Position numbers and translations under genes: made by a program. A DNA stretch of 64,000 nt from Hyphomicrobiales bacterium (GTDB lineage: Bacteria > Pseudomonadota > Alphaproteobacteria > Rhizobiales > Rhizobiaceae). The notes beneath the pieces were generated by a model. It saw only the letters and a program-made list of their open reading frames with translations, was not told the DNA's origin and did no database searches. The DNA lies in assembly GCA_900473175.1 (NCBI GenBank), contig UCKM01000020.1, forward strand, positions 62,001-126,000. Reading direction: 5' to 3'. Below are positions 12,652-60,654 of the stretch, one piece after another; positions within the stretch are counted from its first letter, which is position 1; each line of letters begins with the position of its first letter.

Positions 12652-15111
12652 ATGCGGCGGATCATCAAAGGCCTATTGTGGATCGTCTTCTCGCTCATCC
12701 CCATTGCATTGCTTGCATGTGTGCTCGGTTACGTCTGGCTCGCCCGCTCGGTCACGCCCGCGACTGGAGAAATGTCGCTTGCGGGTCTGTCTGCTCCGGT
12801 CACGATAACGCGCGACAGAAACGCCGTGCCGCATATCAGCGGCAGTTCGGTCGAGGATGTGCTGACGGCGCTTGGGTTCGTCCACGCGCAGGAACGCCTG
12901 TGGCAGATGGAAATGAACCGCATGGCCGGCCAGGGCCGTCTGTCGGAAATTTTCGGCGACAAGACAGTCTCCACGGATACGTTCCTGCGCTCGATCGGCC
13001 TTTACGAATCGGCGCAGAACTCTGTGGAATCGCTCGACGCGCCCGATCGCAGCAAGGTCGACGCCTATGTGCGCGGAATCAATGCATTTATCGATAGTGC
13101 AGCTCCGGCTTTCGGCTCAAAATACTCGCCCGAATTCGTCATCCTCGGGCACCAGCCAGAAAAATGGAGCGCGGCTGATGTAATCGTCACGCTGAAGCTG
13201 ATGTCGGTGTCGCTCGCCGCCAATATCGACGACGAGGTTCTCCGGTTGAAGTTCGCGCGCCTAGGCATGACGGACGCTGAGATAACCGATCTCGAGCCGC
13301 CGGTACCGGGCGATGCACCGCCGCCCTTGCCGGATCTGCGCCAGCTTCTCGGTTTGCCGAGCGGTACTCTAAAGGCCGGTGCCGCCGAGGCGGACGGCCG
13401 CTTTGCCGCGCTGAACGAGATCATGTCAACGGGTGCCTCGAACAATTGGGTCGTGGGCGGCGCGCGCACCGAAAGCGGAAAACCGATTCTCGCCAATGAT
13501 CCGCATCTCGGACTGAGCGCCCCGGCGATATGGTATTTGGCGCATCTTCAGGTGAAGAACAGCGACGGTACATTAAAAAACCTCGTCGGGGTGACTTTGC
13601 CGGGTGCGCCGCTGGTCCTGCTCGGGCGCAATGACAGGGTGGCCTGGGGGTTCACCAATACGGGTTCGGACGTTCAGGACATTTTTGTGGAGAGGGTCAA
13701 TCCTGCCAACTCGGATGAGTATCAGACACCTCGGGGTTTCCAGCCTTTTGAAAAGCGGCCCGTGACGATCAAGGTCAAGGGAGCGCAATCCGTAAGCTTC
13801 GACAGGCGCATCACGCGCCATGGTCCGGTCTTGCCCGCCGACTACCGCAGTCTCGACCATTACATGCCGGACGGTAGCGTTGCATCTTTATCCTGGACGG
13901 CTCTTGCAGGCGACGACAAGACGATTTCGGCGGGTTTCAAGCTTTGGGATTTTGCTACAGTCTCCGATTTCCAGAATGGCATGCATGATTTCATCACCCC
14001 CATGCAGTCGATTGTCATTGCCGATGTGGACGGCAATATCGGCCTGATCGCGCCGGGCAGGGTGCCGGTTCGTGATCCCGCCAATCAGATCATGGGCCGT
14101 GCTCCGTCGCCTGGCTGGGACGCCACCTATGACTGGAAGGGCTTCATACCTTATGATGAATTGCCGCGCGTCTACAATCCCGCCGACAATGTGCTTGCCA
14201 CAGCAAACACCAAGATTGTCGGTGCAGATTACCCGCATTTCCTCACCTTCGACTGGGATGAGCCTTGGCGCTTCGAGCGGATCAAAGCATTGGTCTACGG
14301 TGCCAACCAACAGACGTTGGAGACCAGCCGCAGGGTGCAGGGCGATGCTTTCGACAACGGCTATGCAGCCTTGCTGCCAGCCATGCTCGCAGCGGTCAAA
14401 GGCCGCGGCGACGTCGATGAAGATGTCATTGCGCAGCTCAGTGCCTGGGATGTCGTCGAGGATCGCAATCGCCCAGAGCCTCTGCTCTTCAATGCCTGGC
14501 TCCGAATGGCGATTAAGCGCGTTCTGGCAGATGACCTGGGCGAGGCTTTCCCATCCTTTTGGCAGGGTCACGTCAGCGCGATGCTGCGTTGGCTCGGACC
14601 AAATCCGGCGCGCGACTGGTGCGACGACAGACGCACGCCAGAAAAGGAAAGCTGTGGCGATGTTCTCGCGCTTTCACTTCGCGACGCAATCAAGGATCTT
14701 GATATACGCCTCGGTTCAGATCGTTCGAAATGGAACTGGGGGACACTGCACTATGCTTACGGAGCGCACCGGCCATTCTCGCAGGTCAGTCCGCTCGACC
14801 GGATTTTCGATGTCACCGTTCCGGCATCAGGAGGAGCGTTCAGTCTGGACCGCGGCAAATCGCTGTTTACCGATGAAAGCAATCCATTCCGGGTGACGCA
14901 TGGAACCAGCTTTCGCGGGCTCTACGATCTCGCCAACCTCGATCGCTCGACCTATATCCAGACCACCGGTCAATCGGGCAATGTCCTCTCATCGAACTAC
15001 AGGGATTTCGCGGAGAGATGGGCAAATACCGAAGCGATCACCATCCCGACCGACGAGAACGTCTATCAGGATGGCTTGCTCGGCATTTGGCGCTTGAAAC
15101 CGCAAAAATAG
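12652..15111 (+). CDS. Penicillin acylase family N-terminal-nucleophile hydrolase
   Basis: An 819-residue precursor of an amidohydrolase that matures by self-cleavage. An N-terminal membrane segment (about 5-28) acts as signal or anchor. The alpha region is about 40-255, followed by the cleavage site with the expected beta-subunit nucleophile Ser263 in STGASNNWVVGG. The beta subunit has NDPHL and the characteristic VVLLGR...WGFTNTG region. Known relatives cleave penicillins, cephalosporin side chains, aculeacin or acyl-homoserine lactones; this sequence alone does not decide which. The protein should act in the periplasm. Confidence 0.92.
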   Translation: MRRIIKGLLWIVFSLIPIALLACVLGYVWLARSVTPATGEMSLAGLSAPVTITRDRNAVPHISGSSVEDVLTALGFVHAQERLWQMEMNRMAGQGRLSEIFGDKTVSTDTFLRSIGLYESAQNSVESLDAPDRSKVDAYVRGINAFIDSAAPAFGSKYSPEFVILGHQPEKWSAADVIVTLKLMSVSLAANIDDEVLRLKFARLGMTDAEITDLEPPVPGDAPPPLPDLRQLLGLPSGTLKAGAAEADGRFAALNEIMSTGASNNWVVGGARTESGKPILANDPHLGLSAPAIWYLAHLQVKNSDGTLKNLVGVTLPGAPLVLLGRNDRVAWGFTNTGSDVQDIFVERVNPANSDEYQTPRGFQPFEKRPVTIKVKGAQSVSFDRRITRHGPVLPADYRSLDHYMPDGSVASLSWTALAGDDKTISAGFKLWDFATVSDFQNGMHDFITPMQSIVIADVDGNIGLIAPGRVPVRDPANQIMGRAPSPGWDATYDWKGFIPYDELPRVYNPADNVLATANTKIVGADYPHFLTFDWDEPWRFERIKALVYGANQQTLETSRRVQGDAFDNGYAALLPAMLAAVKGRGDVDEDVIAQLSAWDVVEDRNRPEPLLFNAWLRMAIKRVLADDLGEAFPSFWQGHVSAMLRWLGPNPARDWCDDRRTPEKESCGDVLALSLRDAIKDLDIRLGSDRSKWNWGTLHYAYGAHRPFSQVSPLDRIFDVTVPASGGAFSLDRGKSLFTDESNPFRVTHGTSFRGLYDLANLDRSTYIQTTGQSGNVLSSNYRDFAERWANTEAITIPTDENVYQDGLLGIWRLKPQK

Positions 15112-24348: not shown

Positions 24349-24372
24349 AGCTTTTCTGCGAGAAAGCTCTAA
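24345..24372. terminator. Bidirectional terminator carrying both stop codons
   Basis: TTAGAGCTTT and AAAGCTCTAA make a perfect 10-bp stem with an 8-base loop. The left arm holds the TAG of the L,D-transpeptidase (24346-24348); the right arm holds the TAG of Anbu on the other strand (24369-24371). Both converging transcripts therefore end in the same hairpin. Confidence 0.65.
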
Positions 24373-25109
24373 CCGCGCGGCACGATCTCGAATGGTGGCA
24401 GGCTTTGCAGCGCAAGCTTCAGGGCCTGCGACCAGCCCTCGGATATCATCTCGTAGTAGGGATCGTGGCGTTCGATCCGTTTCTCGAATCCGAGCTTGAA
24501 GCTGTCGGATTCGTAAAATTGCAGGTCAAGCGGCAATCCAACCGACAGGTTGGATTTCAAGGTGGAATCGAAGGATACCATCAGGAGTTTGGTAGCCTCC
24601 TCGAATGTCATTCCCGGATCATAGGAACGCACAATGATCGGCTTGCCGTATTTGTGCTCGCCGATCTGGAAAAATGGCGTGTCGGGGGTGGATTCAATGA
24701 AATTGCCTTCCGGGTAAATCAGAAACAGGCGCGGGTCACCGCCCTTGATCTGACCGCCGAGAATGATCGATGCGCCAAACGAATCCGCCCGTTGTCCGCC
24801 CGAATCCACCTCTTCGATCACATGTCTTATCGTGTCTCCGATCAGCCGGGCCGTCTGGAACATCGACGGCATTTCATAGATCGACGGCGCGCGTTCTGAG
24901 GGTACCTTGGTGCGCTCGTTGAGAATGCTGATCACTGCCTGTGTGGTCGCGAGATTGCCGGCAGAAAGCAATGTGATGACGCGGTCGCCAGGCTTGGCCC
25001 ACGTGTACATTTTCTTGAAAGTCGAAATATTATCGAGTCCAGCATTGGTCCTCGTGTCAGACATGAACACGAGCCCGCGGTCCAATTTGAGTCCCACGCA
25101 ATAAGTCAT
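24369..25109 (-). CDS. Anbu proteasome-like peptidase (ancestral beta subunit)
   Basis: A 246-residue Ntn-hydrolase of the bacterial proteasome-homologue family known as Anbu. It begins MTYCVGLKLDRG: removal of Met would expose Thr as the nucleophile without a long propeptide, as expected for Anbu, and SDTRTNAG with Lys32/33 follows. Known members assemble into open ring or helical particles without an ATPase cap; substrates are unsettled. Last gene of a four-gene operon: it starts 33 bp after the transglutaminase gene. This gene set recurs in many proteobacteria and has been proposed to make and break down peptide-like conjugates. Confidence 0.93.
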   Translation of the reverse strand: MTYCVGLKLDRGLVFMSDTRTNAGLDNISTFKKMYTWAKPGDRVITLLSAGNLATTQAVISILNERTKVPSERAPSIYEMPSMFQTARLIGDTIRHVIEEVDSGGQRADSFGASIILGGQIKGGDPRLFLIYPEGNFIESTPDTPFFQIGEHKYGKPIIVRSYDPGMTFEEATKLLMVSFDSTLKSNLSVGLPLDLQFYESDSFKLGFEKRIERHDPYYEMISEGWSQALKLALQSLPPFEIVPRG

Positions 25110-25142
25110 AGTATAATCCCAGGTCCAAAACGATCAGAGCGA

Positions 25143-25940
25143 TTACTGCTCCACATTGACCTCGACGGCAAGTGATTCGATGCCTGGTCCAACGCGTATA
25201 CCGGAAATTGGCGCCGCTTCACGATAATCAAGCCCGCAGGCGACGCGCACATAGCCTTCATTGGGGCAGATATCGTTGGCGGCATCGAAACCAACCCAGC
25301 CCAGCCCGTCTATGTGGACCTCCGCCCAAGCGTGACTGGCCGTCTGTTCGATCGTGTGGTTGAGCATGAGGTAACCGGACACGTACCGGGCAGGGATGTT
25401 CAAAAGCCGTGCCACCGCGAGGAAGATGTGCGTGTGATCCTGGCAGACGCCCTTGCCGTTGATCAGCGCTTCTTCGGCTGTCGTGGTGATCGTGGTCGAA
25501 CCAGGCGTATACGCGACCTTCTGGTGCAGAAGGCCCATCAGATCGTGCATGACCGCGAGTTTGTCGGATTTGACTTCAAGACTTGCGGCCAAGTCCCGGA
25601 TTGCTTCGCCAGGCTTGGTAAGACTCGTCTCACGCTCATAGAGCCAAGTCGGCATGAAGTTATAGACTTTGCCGAAAACGCCGGTGCGATCTTCGGTTTC
25701 AATCTGCCCTCCCGCGCGGATGACAAGTTCCTCGATGTCGCGCTCGAGGCTGATCAGCAGCGTCCTGTTGCCATAACCGTCACGGTAGTTTGCTTCCTGT
25801 GTCGCCCCTTCCACGTTTAGCGTCCAGTCGATCACCTTCTGGCCGGGGCTACTTTGCGGATACATGCGCAAACGCAGGACCGAGTAGTGCACCGGAGCAT
25901 CATAGCGATAGTGGGAATTGTGCTGAATATTCAGAAGCAT
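25143..25940 (-). CDS. Transglutaminase-like cysteine peptidase of the Anbu operon
   Basis: A 265-residue member of the bacterial transglutaminase-like family. The N-terminal beta domain (NIQHNSHYRYDAPVHYSVLRLRMYP) precedes the papain-like core with Cys166 (GKGVCQDHTH), the catalytic His in SHAWAEV and the Asp in GFDAAN. The family hydrolyses or forms amide bonds. I take the ATG at 25940; an in-frame TTG at 25949 would overlap the alpha-E stop as TTGA, so coupling from that codon is also possible. It is the third gene of the operon. Confidence 0.9.
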   Translation of the reverse strand: MLLNIQHNSHYRYDAPVHYSVLRLRMYPQSSPGQKVIDWTLNVEGATQEANYRDGYGNRTLLISLERDIEELVIRAGGQIETEDRTGVFGKVYNFMPTWLYERETSLTKPGEAIRDLAASLEVKSDKLAVMHDLMGLLHQKVAYTPGSTTITTTAEEALINGKGVCQDHTHIFLAVARLLNIPARYVSGYLMLNHTIEQTASHAWAEVHIDGLGWVGFDAANDICPNEGYVRVACGLDYREAAPISGIRVGPGIESLAVEVNVEQ

Positions 25941-25945
25941 GATCT

Positions 25946-26887
25946 TCAATCGAAGTTGTAGGCTTCAGCAATCTTGCTGCTCAAGCTGTTCGTTTGATAG
26001 ATGAGGTCACTCAGAAACTCGTGGAGGCCGTTGTCAAATATGGTGCGGATTTCATTGTTTTCGAGCCGCGTCATGATGCCTTCGGCCATGTCATGACATT
26101 CGTGCCGCTTGCCGTAGTCGATTGCAAGGTATTTCAGATTGTCGACGATGTTCGAATAGCAGAAGTTGAGCGATCGCGGCATGCGGGAGTTGAGGATCAG
26201 GTAATCCGCTATATTCACCGGATTATATTCGACATCATAGACCCAGCGATACGAGCGGTGGGCTGAAACCGAGCGCAGGATCGACTCCCATTGGAAATTG
26301 TCGAGCGTTGTGCCGACATAGGAGATCGACGGCAACAGCACGTAATATTTGACGTCGAGAATTCGGGCGGTGTTGTCCCCGCGCTCGATGAATGTGCCGA
26401 TGCGGGCAAAATTGTATATTTCGTTGCGTAGCATGGTCCCATGAAACGCTCCGCGAATGATTGCCGTCTCGCGCTTGATCTGATCGAGAACGCGCGGAAG
26501 ATCAGTTTCAGGTACGGTCTGCGCCAGGGTCGATTTGAGGATCATCCATGTCTCGTTGACACTTTCCCAGGCTTCGCGGGTCAGCGCGGTACGCACCATC
26601 CGTGCGTTCAGGCGGGCCGTTTCCACGCAGGACATGACGCTGGATGGATTGTCGAGATCGCGCAGCAGGAAGTCGGACACGAGGCTGGCATTATACTCGT
26701 TGTATTTGTTGTCATAGCCGATCTTGACGCCCGCACTCATCAATACCGATGACCATTCCTCGGGGGCATCTGATGTCTTCGTAAGCGCCATGCGCAACCC
26801 GGCATCGATCAGGCGCGCCATGTTTTCCGCCCGCTCGATATAGCGGAACATCCAGTAGAGACCATTTGCGGTGCGGCCAAGAAGCAT
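25946..26887 (-). CDS. Alpha-E domain protein (DUF403)
   Basis: A 313-residue all-helical protein of the alpha-E family: MLLGRTANGLYWMFRYIERAENMARLIDAGLRM at the N-terminus, with a Glu/Asp/Arg-rich core (FARIGTFIERGDNTARILDVKYY). Its biochemical function is not known; it is almost always encoded beside a circularly permuted ATP-grasp and a transglutaminase. It lies 58 bp after the ATP-grasp gene and touches the transglutaminase gene. Confidence 0.92.
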   Translation of the reverse strand: MLLGRTANGLYWMFRYIERAENMARLIDAGLRMALTKTSDAPEEWSSVLMSAGVKIGYDNKYNEYNASLVSDFLLRDLDNPSSVMSCVETARLNARMVRTALTREAWESVNETWMILKSTLAQTVPETDLPRVLDQIKRETAIIRGAFHGTMLRNEIYNFARIGTFIERGDNTARILDVKYYVLLPSISYVGTTLDNFQWESILRSVSAHRSYRWVYDVEYNPVNIADYLILNSRMPRSLNFCYSNIVDNLKYLAIDYGKRHECHDMAEGIMTRLENNEIRTIFDNGLHEFLSDLIYQTNSLSSKIAEAYNFD

Positions 26888-26945
26888 TTTCTAGTGTCAT
26901 CCCTCGTTATTTGGTCGAACCGTCTTCAGCGGTTCTTGATCTCAA

Positions 26946-28358
26946 TTAATCGTCTAACACCCACGTGTCCTTGGTGCCGCCGCCCTGGCTGGAATTGACG
27001 ACAAGCGAGCCTTCCTTCAGCGCCACGCGGGTCAGTCCGCCCGGCGTGATGCGAATACGGTCCGAGACCAGCACGAAGGGCCGCAGGTCGACATGGCGCG
27101 GCGCCAGACCCTTCTCGGTCATGATCGGGGTTGTCGAAAGCGCCAGGGTCGGCTGGGCGATGTAATTCTTCGGATTTGCCTTCAGCTTGAGCGCAAAAGC
27201 CTCCCGCTCCTTTTTCGAGGCAGCGGGCCCGACAAGCATGCCGTAGCCGCCGGAGCCGTGCACCTCCTTGACAACCAGGTCCGCCAGATTTTCGAGGACA
27301 TATTTGAGCGTGTCCGGTTCCGAGCAGCGATAGGTTGGAACATTCTCCAGGATCGCCTTGCGTCCTGTATAGAACTCGACGATTTCCGGCATGTAGGAGT
27401 AGAGGGCCTTGTCGTCGGCAATGCCCGTCCCGGGCGCATTGGCGATGGTGATATTGCCCGAACGATAGACGTCCATGATCCCGGCGACGCCAAGGGCGGA
27501 ATCGCGGCGGAAGGTGAGGGGATCGAGGAACGAATCGTCGACGCGGCGGTAGAGAACATCGATGGCGCGGTTGCCTTCGGTTGTCCGCATGACGACCTTG
27601 CCGTTTTCGACCTTGAGATCGCCGCCCTCGACCAGTTCCACGCCCATCTGGTCGGCGAGGAATGCATGTTCGAAATAGGCTGAATTGTAGATGCCGGGCG
27701 TCAGCACCGCGATTGTCGGAGCGCCCTTGCATCCGGGGGGCGCCACTGCCGCGAGGGACTGACGCAGCAGCTTCGGGTAGGTTTCGACCGGACGCACCTT
27801 GATCTGCTGAAACAGTTCCGGAAACAGCTGCATCATCGTTTCGCGGTTTTCCAGCATGTAGGAAACGCCGGAGGGCGTCCGTGCATTGTCTTCGAGAACA
27901 TAGAACTGATTTTCTTCAGTTCTGACGATGTCGACGCCGATGATGTGGGTGTAGACGTTGCCGGGCGGACGGAATCCCACCATTTCCGGCAGATAGGCTT
28001 CGTTATGGATAAAAAGTTCGCGCGGAATACGACCGGCACGAATGATCTCCTGACGATGATAAATATCGTCGAGAAACGCATTGAGGGCCATAACGCGCTG
28101 TTCGATGCCCTGCGAAAGACGGCGCCATTCATTGCCGGTAATGATCCGTGGAATGATATCGAAAGGGATGAGCCTTTCTGCTGCCTCCTCATCGCCATAT
28201 ACGGCGAAGGTGATGCCGGTCTTGCGGAAAACGTTCTCTGCGTCCAGCGTCTTCTGCGCCAATCGTTCCGGGTTCTGGGTATCCAGCCAGCATTTTAGCT
28301 GTTCATAGGGCGGGCGCACATCACCGCCGATTTTGATCATCTCATCAAATGGCTTCAC
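26946..28358 (-). CDS. Circularly permuted type 2 ATP-grasp protein
   Basis: A 470-residue predicted amide-bond-forming ligase. Features include NEAYLPEMVGFRPPGNVYTHIIGVDIVR, ENQFYVLEDNARTPSGVSYMLENR with metal and ATP-binding acidic residues, VKEVHGSGGYGMLVG (a lysine/glycine-rich ATP loop placed late, as in circularly permuted grasps), and the C-terminal GGLTRVAL...SQGGGTKDTWVL. Iyer and colleagues grouped such proteins with alpha-E, transglutaminase and Anbu as a predicted peptide-tagging or peptide-synthesis system; no product is established to my knowledge. First gene of the operon; the 236 bp upstream shows nothing else recognisable. Confidence 0.92.
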   Translation of the reverse strand: MKPFDEMIKIGGDVRPPYEQLKCWLDTQNPERLAQKTLDAENVFRKTGITFAVYGDEEAAERLIPFDIIPRIITGNEWRRLSQGIEQRVMALNAFLDDIYHRQEIIRAGRIPRELFIHNEAYLPEMVGFRPPGNVYTHIIGVDIVRTEENQFYVLEDNARTPSGVSYMLENRETMMQLFPELFQQIKVRPVETYPKLLRQSLAAVAPPGCKGAPTIAVLTPGIYNSAYFEHAFLADQMGVELVEGGDLKVENGKVVMRTTEGNRAIDVLYRRVDDSFLDPLTFRRDSALGVAGIMDVYRSGNITIANAPGTGIADDKALYSYMPEIVEFYTGRKAILENVPTYRCSEPDTLKYVLENLADLVVKEVHGSGGYGMLVGPAASKKEREAFALKLKANPKNYIAQPTLALSTTPIMTEKGLAPRHVDLRPFVLVSDRIRITPGGLTRVALKEGSLVVNSSQGGGTKDTWVLDD

Positions 28359-28594
28359 TCAAAATCCCCTTCATAATGAGAGTCATTCAAGCGGGTTCAG
28401 CAAAAAAAGCAAGCACATTCCATCGTTTAAGAACGCGTGGGTGCGTTCAGCTCAAAAAATAGGCAGCCGATTAAGGTTAGAGGCAATCACCCCCGGATTT
28501 TCGGCTAATCCATGGGCGTTCAATTGCAGCCATCTACGACGACGAAGCCGGGATGCGGGAATCCCCGGCTTGGTGAATCAATTTGATTGGCCCA

Positions 28595-55307: not shown

Positions 55308-58300
55308 TTACCGAAGGCGGTTACTTGCATGCGCAAGCATCGTGTAGACCTTGCCGGTATCCGACGTCAGGTAGTTCTGCGTCGTGACATTGTCGCGGTC
55401 GTTGCGGCTGACGTCTTCGAGCAGGCGCTCGAAATCATCCATGTAGCGATCGACGGCGCGGCGGAATTCGGTGTCCGCCTGGTACTTGCGCTTGATCTCG
55501 TCAAAGGTCTGCTGACCCTTGAGCGTATAGAGGCGGCGGGTGAACACATTGCGCTCGCCGGCACGATAACGCTGCCAGAGTTCGACAGAAGCCTCATGGT
55601 CAATCGCACGCGTGATGTCGATTGATAGCGAGTTCAAGGATTCGACCACCTGACCGGGCGAGCGGCTGGTTGCCTTGGCCTTTGGCTCGGCATCTGCCTC
55701 ATCGCTCGATGCTCGGCGCAACAGGTCTGAGACCCAGCCATTGCCGGCGGGGCGTGCGCCAGGCGCCGCATTGCCACGGATATCGAGGCTACCGCGAATT
55801 GCAGGTGCTGCTGCCGCAGGAGTGGCCGCCTGTGCTGGCGACGTGGGTTGGCTTCGCTGCGGCTGCGCGGCAACGGCGGCCGTTGCCCGGGCAGGCGCGG
55901 CAGCGCGCGCGGCGCGAGCTTCGCCGACGTCAGTGAGGCGGCCGGATTTCTGAACGATTTCCGACAGTTCCTTCAAGGCGTTGATCTGCTCTGAGACCGC
56001 CTTGCGCATTTGCGCGGTGGACTGCTTGGCTTCTTCGGGCATGTCCATGACCCCGCGCTGCAATTCGGAACGGGTCTCTTCCAGTTCCGCGCGGATGGCA
56101 GCCGAGGAGCGGCGGATTTCATCGGTCGCGGTTGCGAACTTCTGCGATGCCTGCTCGACGACTTCCGAGATCGAATTGCGAATCTGCTCGGTTGTCTGCG
56201 AGGCGCGGCCTTCGGCGCGATCGAAAGCGGAGGATACAAGCGACTCGAACGAACGCATGGTCTTCTCGATGCTTTCGGACTTCGCAATAAGGCCTGCCGC
56301 GAGCTTCTGCAGTGCTTCCTGGCGATCATCGAAGGTGGAGGCGAGATTTGACTGCGAGGCATTGATCAGTTCGGAAGCCGAGTTGAGCATCTTGCCATGG
56401 TCGTCGAAGCGCTTGGCGATAGCCGAAATGTCGGTCAGTGTCGTGTCGGAGAGTTCCGACAGCTTGCCAAGATTGCCGTCGATAAGCCGGGTCGACGTCT
56501 CGAAGGATTCGGCAGCCTTGGTTGCATTCTCGGCAAAGGCGGTTGTCGTGTCGAGAAGCCGTCCATCGATGTCGCCAAGGTTCTTGGTCGCCATGTCGAT
56601 GAGTTCGCCGAGTTTCGCGTTGGAAGCGGAGAGGCGGTCGATGAGATTGCTGACATCGTCGGTGAGGCCGGCTTTCGCCGCCTGGACGGCGGTGATGGTT
56701 TCTGCGGTGCGGCTGGCGATCGCATTGATCAGAGCCGCATTCTCGACGCGCAACCGCTCCGTTGCGGCTGTCGTTGCTTCAACCAGCTGCGATGCGAGCG
56801 TGCGGCCATTGTCGGCGAGGCTGTCGACCAGAGGCTGTGCCGTATTGTCGAGGATGCCGATGATTTCCTGCGAACGCGCAGCGAGAACTTCGTTGAGCTC
56901 GCGGGTGCTTTCGGCCAGCTTCGAAGCAGTCGAATCGGTTGCTGCGGAGAAGCGGGCTTCGAGTGCTTCGAGATTGGCGGCGGCTTCACGGGCACGTTCA
57001 CCGAGGCGGCGTTCCGTTTCTGCGAGGCTTTCGTTCATGCGATGGCTGAATGCCTCGCCGTGACCGTCAAGCGCTTCGCCAGCCTTCTGCGCCTCGACCG
57101 TGAGGGAAGAGGCGGCGTCGCCGATCTTGTCACGCAGCGTACGCGCAACGACCGAAGCGCTCTGCTCCAGCGACTTGCGCACATTTTCGACGCCCATCGC
57201 AAGTGCGTTCTGCATGGTGTTCGTGCGCTCGTCGATCGTGCCGCCATGGGTTTCGAAGGCTTTTGCCAGCACCTCGGCGCTGTCCTGGAGCACTGCCTGA
57301 AGTGCAATGGTGCGATCACTGATCGTGCTGGCCTTGCTGTCCAGCGTCTGGCCGATGGCGGCGTTGCCCTGTTCCATGGCGGCCCGGATGCCGGCGATGC
57401 GGTCATCAAGCATGCCCGCATGCGCGTTCAATGTATCGCCAATGCGACCATCGCTGTCCGAGAGTACCGCACGGATCGCTGCTGCACGCTCTTCGAGAGC
57501 GCCAATATGCGAGGCAAGAATGTCGCCGATCTGGTTGTTGCCGCCGTCGAGCGCCGAGCGGATACCCGCTGTACGCTCTTCGATATCGGACACGTGGCGG
57601 GCAAGCACCTGTTCAACCTGACCCGTGCTCGAGTCGAGCATGGACCGGATACCGGCTGTGCGTTCTTCGAGCGCGCCGAGATGCGAGGCGAGCGTATCGC
57701 CAATCTGGTTGTTGCTATTGTCGAGCACCGACCGGATACCGGCAGTGCGCGTTTCGATATCATTTGCGTGTTGCGCGAGCGTATCGCCGATGCGCGAATG
57801 TGTATTCTCAAGCGCTGCCTGGATATCGGCCGTACGCTCGTCGAGCGAGGCGGCATGCCTTGCGAGCGTCTGGTCGATCCGCTGGTCGCTGTTCGTCAGG
57901 GCATTTTCGATGCCCGCGGTCCGATCCTCGATGGCACTCGCATGGGTGGCAAGGACATCGCTGATACGGGCATCACTGCTGGTCAGGGCCGACTCGATGC
58001 GGTTGGTGCGATCGTCGACGGAGTCGATGAAGCCGCCGAGGGTGTCATCGATACGGGCGCCGCTGCTGAGCAATGTCACCTGGATTTCAGCGTTGCGCGC
58101 GTCGATGGCTTGGGTGTGCGCAGCGAGCGTGTCGCCAAGCTTGATGTCGCTGCTGGAAAGAGCCAGCTGGATTTCACGGTTGCGCTCGTCAAGGCTCTTG
58201 GCGTGATGATCAAGGGTCTGCGCGATCTTGGCGTGCGTATCGACGAATGCAGCGCGCATGCCGGAGGTGCGATCGTCGATGATTTTTGCATGCGCGTCCA

Positions 58301-60353
58301 GCGTCTGGCCGATGCGGGAATCATTGGCATGAATTGCCGCTTCGATGGTCGAACTACGCAGGTCGATCGTGCGCGTATGTTCGTCCATCGTCTGGCGAAT
58401 CTTCGCATCCGTATCGGAGAACGCAGCATGCATGCCGGAGGTGCGGTCTTCGATGGCCTTGGCGTGCTGCTCGAGCGTCGCGCCAATGCGGGCATCATTG
58501 TCGTCAAGCGCCGCCCGCAGGTTTGCCGCCCGTTCTTCGAGCGATCCGGTGTGGCCCTCGATGATCTGGCCGATGGCGGTTGTGCTGGTCTCAAGAATGG
58601 TTCTGAGGTTCGACGTATGATCGCCGATTTGGCCCGCCTGTTCGCGCATGACGGCCGCTGCGCGATCCGTCTCGCCCGATAGTGTCGAGGCAAGCGCCTC
58701 GCGGCTCTCCGCCAATCTGTCGGCGAGCGCTGTTGCACTCGTCGAGAGCAGGCTGCCAACGGATTCCGACAGGCTCGACAGATCGTTGCCAATCTTGGCC
58801 TTGGTCTCGTCGACGATGCCATCGATGGAAGCGCGGCCATCGGTGAAGGTCTTGGCGATATCGCGGGTACGCTCGATCAACTGTTCGTTGATCTGGCGGG
58901 CGCGGGCCTCAAGTGCCGAATTGAGGCGTTCCGTGCTGGTATCGAGCGACTGCGCACGCGTCTCGAACTCCGCGAGCAGCGAACGGCCACGCTCGTTGAT
59001 CGTGGTGTCGAGCCCGGCGAGGCGGGTGTCGAATTCGCCGACCAGCGTTTGCGTGGCGTCGCCAAGCAGCGACAACATGCTGTTGGTGCGACCGTCCAGC
59101 GTGTCGGCCAGTTTCAGTGTCACCGCATCCGTCTGTTCGGACAGGGCTGCAATGCGCATTTCCAGAAGATTCGCAAAGGCTTCGCCGGACGTGCTGATCT
59201 TGTTCGAAATGTCGTCGGAGCGCGAAACGATGGACTCTGAGATCGCCTGTCCGCTCTGTGCCAGGCGGTCAATAAGGGTTTCCCCGGACTGGCTGATCGA
59301 CATGGTCAGATTGGTTGAGGCATTGGAAAGGTTTTCGCGCAATGCATCGCCAGCCTGCGACAGCTCATCCTTCAGCTGCTCGTGGGCGCTGGAGATCGAG
59401 GCGCGGACGCGCTCGGCATGGCCGATCACCGATTCGCGCTCGCCGCCGAGACGGTCGACCAGCGTGCGGATGCGGTATTCATTGTCCGTATAGACGCGTT
59501 CGAGCTGGTTGACTTCGGTCTGGACCAGCGTCTCAAGCTCGACGGCGCGGGCGAGGGTGCGTTCGACGCCTTCGCTCATCGCGGCAACTTCACGCCGCAC
59601 AGCCTGGCCGAGAGAAGCGACGCGGTCGGACGAGAGCATCTCCGGCTCCGACAGGCGCATGGCGGCCTCGGCCATGGAGCGCGCGGCATATTGCATTTCC
59701 TGGGCGCGGCGGACCATCAGCGCGAAGGCCCAGAACAGCATGATCGGCACGATGATGGCGACTGCGAGGCCGATCGCGTAGGGCGCCGCGGCAAAGTCGG
59801 CGAATGAATGGATGGACCACAGCGAGGCGCCGTACATTGCATTGCCGAGGGCAAGCACACCGGCAGTCCAGAGCAGGCTGATGATGGTCGTTACCAGCGC
59901 GTAGGATCGTGGCGCTTGCGCGGCCGGAATCGATGGCCGGGCGACCGTGGACTTCTGCAAAAGATCGTCGTTCGCAGGCTTGAACGTTTGCGCGGGCACT
60001 GCCGGCGCCTTGGGCAAAGCAGGCGGTGCGGCAGGTATGGGATTTGCGGCCTTGATCTGAGGTTTTGGCGCTGGAAGGGACGTGGTAACTGCGGCGGCGG
60101 GCGCCTTGGTTTCGGTAGCGGCTACCGGCTCAGGCTCTGAAGGCAAACTATGCTTTTCTGCTGCCAGTTCCTGCGCTGCCTGTGAAATCTGTGCTTCGAG
60201 ATCGCTGAGGGACAAGAGATCGTCATCGACGGGAGATAAATCCATATCCATCCCAAGCGTCGACTCGTCGAAATCGATTTCAAGTGCCTTTTCAAGAGCT
60301 TCGCCGAGTTCTTCTTCGGTTTTCGCTACCTTGCTTTTCGGAGCTGTGGCCAT
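55308..60353 (-). CDS. Giant membrane coiled-coil repeat protein ('kinesin-like')
   Basis: A 1681-residue protein. Residues 1-150 are acidic then Ala/Pro-rich. Two transmembrane helices (about 152-174 and 190-213) make a hairpin. Residues about 215-1480 are almost entirely predicted alpha-helix, including 17 consecutive 29-residue repeats at 572-1064. An Ala/Pro/Gln linker (about 1490-1560) leads to a compact C-terminal domain (about 1575-1681: DITRAIDHEASVELWQRYRAGE, FDEIKRKYQADTEF). Long homologues in Brucella and rhizobia are annotated as kinesin-like, but there is no motor domain or P-loop here. The start at 60353 is supported by GAGGT. The protein would project a very long coiled coil, probably into the cytoplasm. 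Function unknown; envelope organisation or polarity are guesses. Confidence 0.9.
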   Translation of the reverse strand: MATAPKSKVAKTEEELGEALEKALEIDFDESTLGMDMDLSPVDDDLLSLSDLEAQISQAAQELAAEKHSLPSEPEPVAATETKAPAAAVTTSLPAPKPQIKAANPIPAAPPALPKAPAVPAQTFKPANDDLLQKSTVARPSIPAAQAPRSYALVTTIISLLWTAGVLALGNAMYGASLWSIHSFADFAAAPYAIGLAVAIIVPIMLFWAFALMVRRAQEMQYAARSMAEAAMRLSEPEMLSSDRVASLGQAVRREVAAMSEGVERTLARAVELETLVQTEVNQLERVYTDNEYRIRTLVDRLGGERESVIGHAERVRASISSAHEQLKDELSQAGDALRENLSNASTNLTMSISQSGETLIDRLAQSGQAISESIVSRSDDISNKISTSGEAFANLLEMRIAALSEQTDAVTLKLADTLDGRTNSMLSLLGDATQTLVGEFDTRLAGLDTTINERGRSLLAEFETRAQSLDTSTERLNSALEARARQINEQLIERTRDIAKTFTDGRASIDGIVDETKAKIGNDLSSLSESVGSLLSTSATALADRLAESREALASTLSGETDRAAAVMREQAGQIGDHTSNLRTILETSTTAIGQIIEGHTGSLEERAANLRAALDDNDARIGATLEQHAKAIEDRTSGMHAAFSDTDAKIRQTMDEHTRTIDLRSSTIEAAIHANDSRIGQTLDAHAKIIDDRTSGMRAAFVDTHAKIAQTLDHHAKSLDERNREIQLALSSSDIKLGDTLAAHTQAIDARNAEIQVTLLSSGARIDDTLGGFIDSVDDRTNRIESALTSSDARISDVLATHASAIEDRTAGIENALTNSDQRIDQTLARHAASLDERTADIQAALENTHSRIGDTLAQHANDIETRTAGIRSVLDNSNNQIGDTLASHLGALEERTAGIRSMLDSSTGQVEQVLARHVSDIEERTAGIRSALDGGNNQIGDILASHIGALEERAAAIRAVLSDSDGRIGDTLNAHAGMLDDRIAGIRAAMEQGNAAIGQTLDSKASTISDRTIALQAVLQDSAEVLAKAFETHGGTIDERTNTMQNALAMGVENVRKSLEQSASVVARTLRDKIGDAASSLTVEAQKAGEALDGHGEAFSHRMNESLAETERRLGERAREAAANLEALEARFSAATDSTASKLAESTRELNEVLAARSQEIIGILDNTAQPLVDSLADNGRTLASQLVEATTAATERLRVENAALINAIASRTAETITAVQAAKAGLTDDVSNLIDRLSASNAKLGELIDMATKNLGDIDGRLLDTTTAFAENATKAAESFETSTRLIDGNLGKLSELSDTTLTDISAIAKRFDDHGKMLNSASELINASQSNLASTFDDRQEALQKLAAGLIAKSESIEKTMRSFESLVSSAFDRAEGRASQTTEQIRNSISEVVEQASQKFATATDEIRRSSAAIRAELEETRSELQRGVMDMPEEAKQSTAQMRKAVSEQINALKELSEIVQKSGRLTDVGEARAARAAAPARATAAVAAQPQRSQPTSPAQAATPAAAAPAIRGSLDIRGNAAPGARPAGNGWVSDLLRRASSDEADAEPKAKATSRSPGQVVESLNSLSIDITRAIDHEASVELWQRYRAGERNVFTRRLYTLKGQQTFDEIKRKYQADTEFRRAVDRYMDDFERLLEDVSRNDRDNVTTQNYLTSDTGKVYTMLAHASNRLR
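57162..58640 (-). repeat. 17 tandem 87-bp (29-residue) repeats in the giant protein gene
   Basis: The 1479 bp divide exactly into 17 units of 87 bp without insertions or deletions. The consensus protein unit reads roughly HAxxIEERTAGIRxALDxSDxRIGDTLAx. His at position 1, Asp/Glu-Arg at 7-8, Ile/Leu near 12 and 16, and Ile-Gly-x-Thr-Leu at 23-27 are best kept. Several central units are nearly identical in DNA too. Outer units, at both ends, are more diverged, as expected for expansion from the middle. Confidence 0.9.
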
Positions 60354-60654
60354 GCTTACCTCACAATATTGGCCGGTGACCACATGTGGAGCCCACCGCG
60401 CCATACTCTTTACGCCGCTACTGTATCGTACTGACACATGGATTGGAAAGAAACAACGGATTCGGCAAATGCTTAAAAGTTTAAACACAAGGTTAATTTT
60501 TTGAGGTCGGACGAAATTTCAGCCCAACATCAAAATTTACCGAACGTTCACCATAGTTGAGCTTTTTCAGGGTGTATTGCCTCGTTTTAACCTTGAATCA
60601 GCGCAATTTGAAGAAACTTGTTAGTTCATTCGTAAAAGTGTTCAGGAGAGTACA
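60354..60654. other. Gene-free divergent spacer between the giant gene and the Hpt gene
   Basis: 301 bp with no credible gene. It should hold both promoters. It is AT-rich, with three TTAA motifs in 24 bp (60473-60476, 60481-60484, 60493-60496) spaced by 4 and 8 bases; the CtrA box is TTAA-N7-TTAA, so the match is not exact. No strong hairpin or other RNA element seen. Confidence 0.5.

Follow-up and report, generated by a model that had tools for sequence, protein, structure and literature searches.

The Anbu operon of a Phyllobacterium-like genome: an obligate ATP-grasp/alpha-E pair with Anbu as an optional addition

This report deals with the Anbu operon in a 64,000-nucleotide stretch of DNA (the window, by which we mean the whole stretch that was analysed) from a Phyllobacterium-like draft genome of 4.88 Mb. 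The operon occupies positions 24369-28358 on the minus strand (read from 28358 to 24369) and encodes an ATP-grasp ligase, alpha-E, a transglutaminase-like protein (Tg), and the proteasome-like hydrolase Anbu; the ATP-grasp protein is 98% identical to its homologue in Phyllobacterium sophorae. It is a complete copy of a kind of operon already known in bacteria, described in 2008-2009 (Valas and Bourne 2008; Iyer et al. 2009; both as cited in later papers). What is new here are the boundaries of the operon system, namely an obligate pair formed by ATP-grasp and alpha-E and the modules that are nested within its distribution. Anbu is the least understood relative of the proteasome, with no known function (PMC8665760), and its substrate has been a question since 2008.

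The operon and its flanks

The features of the operon, given in gene order and followed by the region upstream, are the following.

26946-28358, minus strand: ATP-grasp ligase, circularly permuted, type I; first gene of the operon (PF14403/PF04174, PDB 3n6x)
25946-26887, minus strand: alpha-E, the obligate genomic partner of the ATP-grasp (PF04168)
26450-26857, minus strand: alpha-E, first of its two repeats (residues ~11-146), containing the first ER motif (hhalign comparison of the two halves)
25976-26407, minus strand: alpha-E, second of its two repeats (residues ~161-304), containing the second ER motif (hhalign comparison of the two halves)
25143-25949, minus strand: Tg, transglutaminase-like cysteine hydrolase, starting at TTG 25949 or ATG 25940 (PF01841, PF08379, PDB 3isr)
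24369-25109, minus strand: Anbu, proteasome-like N-terminal nucleophile (Ntn) hydrolase with a Met-Thr start (PF00227; PDB 5loy, 5nyj, 5nyf, 5nyw, 5lox)
28359-28594, minus strand: intergenic region upstream of the ATP-grasp gene (best score for a sigma-54 -24/-12 site, 0)

The original prediction of four same-strand genes forming a known Anbu operon is borne out, as the same four genes stand in the known order. They are separated by 58 bp (ATP-grasp/alpha-E) and 33 bp (Tg/Anbu), and at the alpha-E/Tg junction by either a 4-bp overlap or a 5-bp gap, depending on whether the TTG or the ATG start of Tg is chosen. The window copy shares with the published operons the gene content and order, the residues Thr1/Asp17/Lys32, an Anbu-1-like pocket, and the lack of an AAA ATPase, and differs from them in nothing essential. 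Outside the operon, the family scan places a convergent L,D-transpeptidase gene downstream and a BA14K-like gene upstream. Scans for regulatory signals stayed close to what sequence shuffles yield, with 2 promoter-like sites (3.5 expected) and 5 terminator-like sites (4.8 expected).

Neither the operon nor the flanking genes identified by the family scan include an open reading frame (ORF) for an AAA ATPase, in line with what had been claimed for the neighborhood of Anbu. The other proteasome-family gene of the genome is HslV-like and lies on another contig (C34), adjoining an ORF that was read by eye as HslU. Gating of Anbu by HslU was considered and dropped, since the HslV-like gene adjoins its own HslU-like ORF. 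Anbu resembles HslV and the 20S proteasome in its Ntn-hydrolase fold and catalytic residues, whereas it differs in having no AAA+ partner in its operon, in coexisting with a separate HslV-like gene, and in its published ring, which is an open split ring (PMC5666114, PMC8665760).

Protein families and active sites

All catalytic residues that had been named for the operon beforehand (Cys166/His/Asp in Tg and the Thr following Met in Anbu) are indeed there and conserved. The ATP-grasp protein matches PF14403 (E 3.1e-166) and PDB 3n6x (E 5.7e-196), and its motifs VLEDN..PSG, DDK, K....GSGGYG, and DLRPF, which are predicted to bind nucleotide and metal, are intact. A motif test was passed by 102 of 112 ATP-grasp sequences, the window copy included. 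The corresponding ATP-grasp of the Yersinia Anbu operon releases phosphate from ATP (PMC6376114), the only activity published for a homologue. Alpha-E belongs to PF04168 (E 3.1e-92), and a sequence search of the PDB gave no meaningful relative (best E 0.89).

Tg matches PF01841 and PF08379 as well as PDB 3isr (E 3.4e-14). Of its triad (ATG numbering), Cys166 and His203 are each conserved in 109 of the 110 copies aligned, and Asp219 in all of them. Anbu matches PF00227 (E 3.6e-09) and five distinct Anbu sequences in the PDB (E 3e-89 to 3e-65). Its Thr1, which directly follows Met, is kept in 115 of 116 sequences, and Asp17 and Lys32 (mature numbering) in all 116. Judging from these close homologues, the window protein probably assembles into an open split ring as well. 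The pocket residues T20-F30-S48-L52-T55 resemble those of Anbu-1 as defined in PMC5666114; Anbu-1 of Pseudomonas aeruginosa has T48 and S55 at the respective positions (PMC5666114).

An obligate pair with nested modules

The distribution of the genes was followed across 299 genomes from one phylum, mostly at least 90% complete and with low contamination in 293 of the 299; the statistics treat genomes as independent and are uncorrected for relatedness. ATP-grasp (found with alignment A1) and alpha-E occupy identical sets of 171 genomes. Anbu was counted in 115 genomes, a weak match in G016 (32% identity) included, of which 113 fall inside the ATP-grasp/alpha-E set (Fisher p ~1e-35). The same nesting holds for the DUF2126 amidoligase (92 of 92 genomes) and for the zinc-ribbon metallopeptidase Peptidase_Mx (56 of 57 genomes). 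The latter is absent from the window's genome; elsewhere it can adjoin ATP-grasp/alpha-E or Anbu, as at L156:8747-9889, L170:6875-7990, and L174:6856-7986. The pair itself occurs without Anbu in 58 of the 171 genomes. ATP-grasp and alpha-E are, in short, an obligate pair, and Anbu is an optional addition to it. The notion of four partnered genes needs correcting in that its members are unequal, as only 113 of the 171 pair genomes have Anbu.

Inside the set of 171, Anbu is distributed independently of DUF2126 (58, 55, 34, and 24 genomes; p 0.42) and of Peptidase_Mx (40, 73, 16, and 42 genomes; p 0.39), while DUF2126 and Peptidase_Mx co-occur (p 7e-6). Among 14 control genomes, which include other phyla, Caulobacter vibrioides has alpha-E, Synechococcus elongatus has both alpha-E and DUF2126, and none has Peptidase_Mx.

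Gene order is also informative. The Anbu loci compared (n = 116) are the window and the 115 Anbu genes outside it, the latter with some 8 kb of flanking DNA on either side. Of these loci, 82 carry ATP-grasp, alpha-E, Tg, and Anbu in this order and on the same strand, far beyond chance. Another eight, the mixed clusters, combine DUF2126 with two ATP-grasp/alpha-E pairs, and 15 show no partner in the stretch. In 16 genomes neither ATP-grasp nor alpha-E lies within about 8 kb of Anbu; some of these stretches end at contig ends, but G082 and G204 are examples of complete genomes where Anbu and the pair are genuinely far apart. The pair is nonetheless present elsewhere in 14 of these 16 genomes (7 of 8 family codes), versus 72 of the 200 genomes without linked Anbu (binomial p 3e-5, genomes again taken as independent), which suggests that Anbu depends on ATP-grasp/alpha-E even without linkage.

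The reverse does not apply. In the window's own family, the loci of four of the seven Anbu-less pair genomes were read (L183-L186) and carry ATP-grasp, alpha-E, and Tg without Anbu. Of 80 named loci found by their ATP-grasp (a few ending at contig ends, and three repeating genomes of the 299 set), 60 include Anbu in the stretch; the 20 that lack it there include Rhizobium, Agrobacterium, Shinella, Devosia, and Burkholderia.

One could argue that Anbu has simply inherited this neighborhood and is functionally untied to the other three genes. The 58 pair genomes without Anbu are consistent with this, as are in vitro experiments in which the operon proteins formed no complex and Anbu did not stimulate the ATP-grasp or vice versa (PMC6376114). 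Considering that the order is kept at 82 of 116 loci and that the dependence persists in 14 of 16 unlinked cases, we deem this explanation very improbable.

A proposed role of Anbu as a hydrolase of the ligase's product

ATP-grasp and alpha-E are probably one ligase unit because they always occur together and are fused in a paralogous operon of the same genome (see below). The substrate of this cytoplasmic unit would be a small molecule or a protein, on which it makes an amide or peptide bond, as expected from the ATP-grasp family, and Tg and Anbu would, going by their own families, hydrolyze or trim the product. Anbu would then be an optional, ligase-dependent product hydrolase within an ATP-dependent ligase-hydrolase system for amide bonds, and not a free-standing general protease; we give this an even chance of being correct. 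We prefer a product hydrolase to a general protease because the presence of Anbu needs the ligase unit, linked or not, while the unit can often dispense with Anbu. If Anbu works only together with the ATP-grasp/alpha-E ligase, standard screens of protease substrates were bound to fail.

Several points weigh against this reading. Co-occurrence is by itself no proof that Anbu acts on the product of the ligase. Two genomes of one shared genus code (G094 and G248, loci L168 and L171) have an Anbu that keeps its T/D/K residues, with neither ATP-grasp nor alpha-E at the cut-offs used; at L171 the ORF just upstream of Anbu matches no Pfam family. Published assays found no peptidase activity of Anbu, also on proteasome substrates, and the absence of a complex and of any effect of Anbu on the ATP-grasp, already mentioned, comes from the same work (PMC6376114). 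Lastly, the authors of PMC5666114 see their own data as favoring protein degradation.

That view corresponds to a different explanation, in which Anbu would be a general protease, working without ATP, through which cells starved of nitrogen recycle their proteins, while its neighbors use or feed this turnover. Labelling of Thr1 by epoxomicin and MG132 and the ring-like assembly (PMC5666114) speak for it, as does the induction of the operon by nitrogen limitation (PMC7801951). However, besides being inactive on proteasome substrates, Anbu cleaved neither casein nor a large set of peptides (PMC5666114), and anbu expression in wild-type Pseudomonas putida hardly responds to nitrogen limitation (PMC7801951; figures below). 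A general protease also need not require the ligase pair, yet 113 of the 115 Anbu genomes have it, in some cases unlinked. We regard a general protease as unlikely. A role of Anbu as an amidotransferase was raised and then set aside in PMC6376114.

Another explanation is a protein-tagging cycle. Here the ligase, with or without Tg, would add a peptide or amino acid to a protein, and Anbu would either remove this tag in a deubiquitinase-like manner or degrade the tagged proteins. The prediction of peptide synthesis or tagging that had been credited to Iyer and colleagues is in print, attributed to them in PMC5666114 and PMC6376114 and repeated in the latter. The pairing of ligase and hydrolase has parallels in two systems treated in PMC12239564. 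RimK/RimB likewise opposes an ATP-grasp glutamate ligase to a peptidase, in the polyglutamylation of ribosomal protein RpsF, but with another ATP-grasp family, another peptidase, and no alpha-E. The rlo operon of P. aeruginosa (RloA protease, RloB inactive transglutaminase, RloC ATP-grasp) likewise combines an ATP-grasp, a transglutaminase fold, and a peptidase, and loss of RloC rescues loss of the RloA proteases, placing them in one pathway. RloA is, however, a secreted aspartic protease and RloB an inactive membrane protein, whereas the window's operon has an intact Tg triad and a hydrolase of the Ntn type; neither alpha-E nor Anbu gave a hit in PMC12239564.

The neighborhood of Anbu speaks against tagging. 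No conserved fifth gene emerged from 1256 clustered, non-overlapping neighbor ORFs of the Anbu loci. The widest family (an ABC ATPase by eye) reaches 7 family codes at 13 loci, the next (a dehydrogenase by eye) 5, and the rest 4 or fewer, among them Peptidase_Mx in 3. Since the widest family is confined to 7 family codes, there is no general fifth partner, and no conserved tag-like small protein is found among these ORFs. Sequence alone cannot separate tagging from hydrolysis of some other ligase product; we consider tagging rather improbable.

A second, Anbu-less operon with a degenerate ATP-grasp

Calling the operon complete was correct in that all four genes are present, but understated the situation, as the same genome has a second, related operon.

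C33:2505-9199 (locus L005): Tg-DUF2126 protein (1112 amino acids), ATP-grasp::alpha-E fusion (806 amino acids), and a second Tg (292 amino acids)

Both operons bring Tg, ATP-grasp, and alpha-E domains together. They differ in that the second one lacks Anbu, has gained a DUF2126 amidoligase, and carries its ATP-grasp fused to alpha-E and devoid of the catalytic motifs that type-I copies keep. Ten sequences failed the motif test. Nine of them are this fusion and, from each of the 8 mixed clusters, the second ATP-grasp; the tenth (L162) is an otherwise intact ATP-grasp with one loop glycine changed.

The pattern extends to the 41 DUF2126 loci compared (40 further ones and the genome's own). All 36 fused ATP-grasp copies lack the glycine loop (a DDK string occurs somewhere in 2 of them), and all 13 unfused copies are intact; four loci have no fusion, and one gave no DUF2126 by profile. 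The degenerate ATP-grasp copies form one clade (45 of the 115 sequences in the tree), and so do the alpha-E domains attached to them (38 of 108), both with support 1.0. Because each is a single clade, the ATP-grasp/alpha-E pair appears to have been duplicated once, as a unit. Positions of both DUF2126 and an intact ATP-grasp were listed for 82 of the 92 DUF2126 genomes, and in 29 of these the two lie at most 10 kb apart. Peptidase_Mx, with positions listed for 54 of its 57 genomes, lies at most 10 kb from ATP-grasp or DUF2126 in 16. Two Burkholderia species carry the complete set in tandem on one strand.

Alpha-E itself is a tandem duplication, according to profile comparison. Its N and C halves align with a probability of 99.3 (E 1.4e-20, 135 columns), and a control with the C half reversed gave 0.7. 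A second alignment yielded 98.2 (E 4.4e-14, 90 columns), with 20 column shuffles at 3.2 or below. The open-licence literature searched, as far as its text was available, holds no statement of this duplication. Likewise, the obligate pair, the nesting of Anbu, DUF2126, and Peptidase_Mx, the dead second ATP-grasp, and the duplicated alpha-E were not found in the available text of the Anbu-operon literature searched.

These features can be drawn together into a broader, tentative picture, to which we assign clearly less than an even chance, of a modular amide-ligase system built around a shared ATP-grasp/alpha-E unit. After the single duplication, the second copy would have been fused and its ATP-grasp, having lost catalysis, kept as a scaffold, with ligation passing to DUF2126. 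In both operons alpha-E might be the part that binds the substrate or the product; the genome's own fused alpha-E retains both ER motifs, even though its ATP-grasp is dead. Anbu, Peptidase_Mx, and the Tg enzymes could serve as interchangeable product hydrolases, and NtrC together with sigma-54 may switch the system on in many lineages as nitrogen runs out. A dead ATP-grasp paired with DUF2126 would also indicate which of the second operon's domains is the catalyst.

Probable regulation by nitrogen in other lineages

Published expression data connect these genes to nitrogen. In an ntrC mutant of Burkholderia cenocepacia, I35_5080-83 (DUF404/407, DUF403, Tg, and a large Tg protein) are down 8.2-, 9.4-, 9.4-, and 6.0-fold; sigma-54 also governs 95% of the NtrC regulon (PMC5491218). 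The large Tg protein is presumably of the DUF2126 type. In P. putida, PP_2686, PP_2687, and PP_2688 rise 12.6-, 11.0-, and 14.7-fold under nitrogen limitation (PMC7801951).

We searched 330-bp stretches upstream of intact type-I ATP-grasp genes (n = 182) for sigma-54 -24/-12 sites scoring at least 10 and found them in 37 (36 of 178 once duplicates are removed). Random windows of the same loci gave 1.9. Sites also turned up for 11 of 1216 other ORFs and on the reverse strand for 2 of the 182 stretches, and shifting the spacing by 1-3 bases left 0-2. The set without named loci retains 25 of 103, spread over 10 of 28 family codes, and 30 of the 36 sites lie 37-130 bp before the ATP-grasp profile match.

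As part of the product-hydrolase reading, the operon would belong to the nitrogen-starvation response in many lineages, and several results count against this. The window has no -24/-12 site, and its family has one in 1 of 12 cases. Sites are not enriched upstream of DUF2126 (1 of 41), and none precedes the 20 Anbu genes outside the core operon. In wild-type P. putida, Anbu (PP_2685) rises only 1.12-fold under nitrogen limitation, and in an rpoN mutant the PP_2686-2688 trio is still up 14- to 20-fold (PMC7801951). The response of the trio argues against a strict dependence on sigma-54 for this strain under this condition; in the same table, the genes of the urea transporter show a like pattern. 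The enrichment of sites is seen in families other than the window's. Since the window copy has no site and its family has 1 in 12, we propose nitrogen control for other lineages and not for this copy.

A further explanation is a nitrogen-scavenging pathway in which ligation comes first. An amine or amide nitrogen source would be joined to a carrier acid, and the hydrolases would release usable nitrogen, with the gamma-glutamyl putrescine route as a model. The genes share their NtrC and nitrogen regulation with those for uptake of urea, purines, and dipeptides (PMC7801951, PMC5491218), and marine metagenomes link these domains to urea metabolism (PMC3597751). On the other hand, the 1256 neighbor ORFs include no conserved oxidoreductase, transaminase, or transporter, and the window is without a sigma-54 site; we judge this pathway distinctly improbable.

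The operon had been put forward as an incompletely described system. It is less undescribed than claimed: Anbu crystal structures, the reaction of Thr1 with inhibitors, an ATP-grasp that acts as an ATPase, and regulation by NtrC or nitrogen are already published. With the nested distribution and the link to nitrogen, the function of the Anbu operon becomes testable.

Minor features of the window

Upstream of the operon, at 28422-28408 on the minus strand, a TGG...TTGCT near-site has a spacing one base short of a -24/-12 site and is also present in P. sophorae (read by eye). The element GTGCTTGCTTTT (28408-28440, minus strand) lies about 50 bp before the ATP-grasp gene, is found in P. sophorae too, and has similar counterparts in Brucella tritici and Mesorhizobium loci. 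Read by eye, it is a possible sigma-70-type promoter of the window's family.

Elsewhere in the window, an ORF of 1726 amino acids (55308-60488, minus strand) is matched only by apolipoprotein-like amphipathic-repeat models (PF01442) and is probably a long helical repeat protein. At 12652-15111 on the plus strand lies a penicillin-amidase family protein (PF01804), which we take to be an Ntn hydrolase as well.

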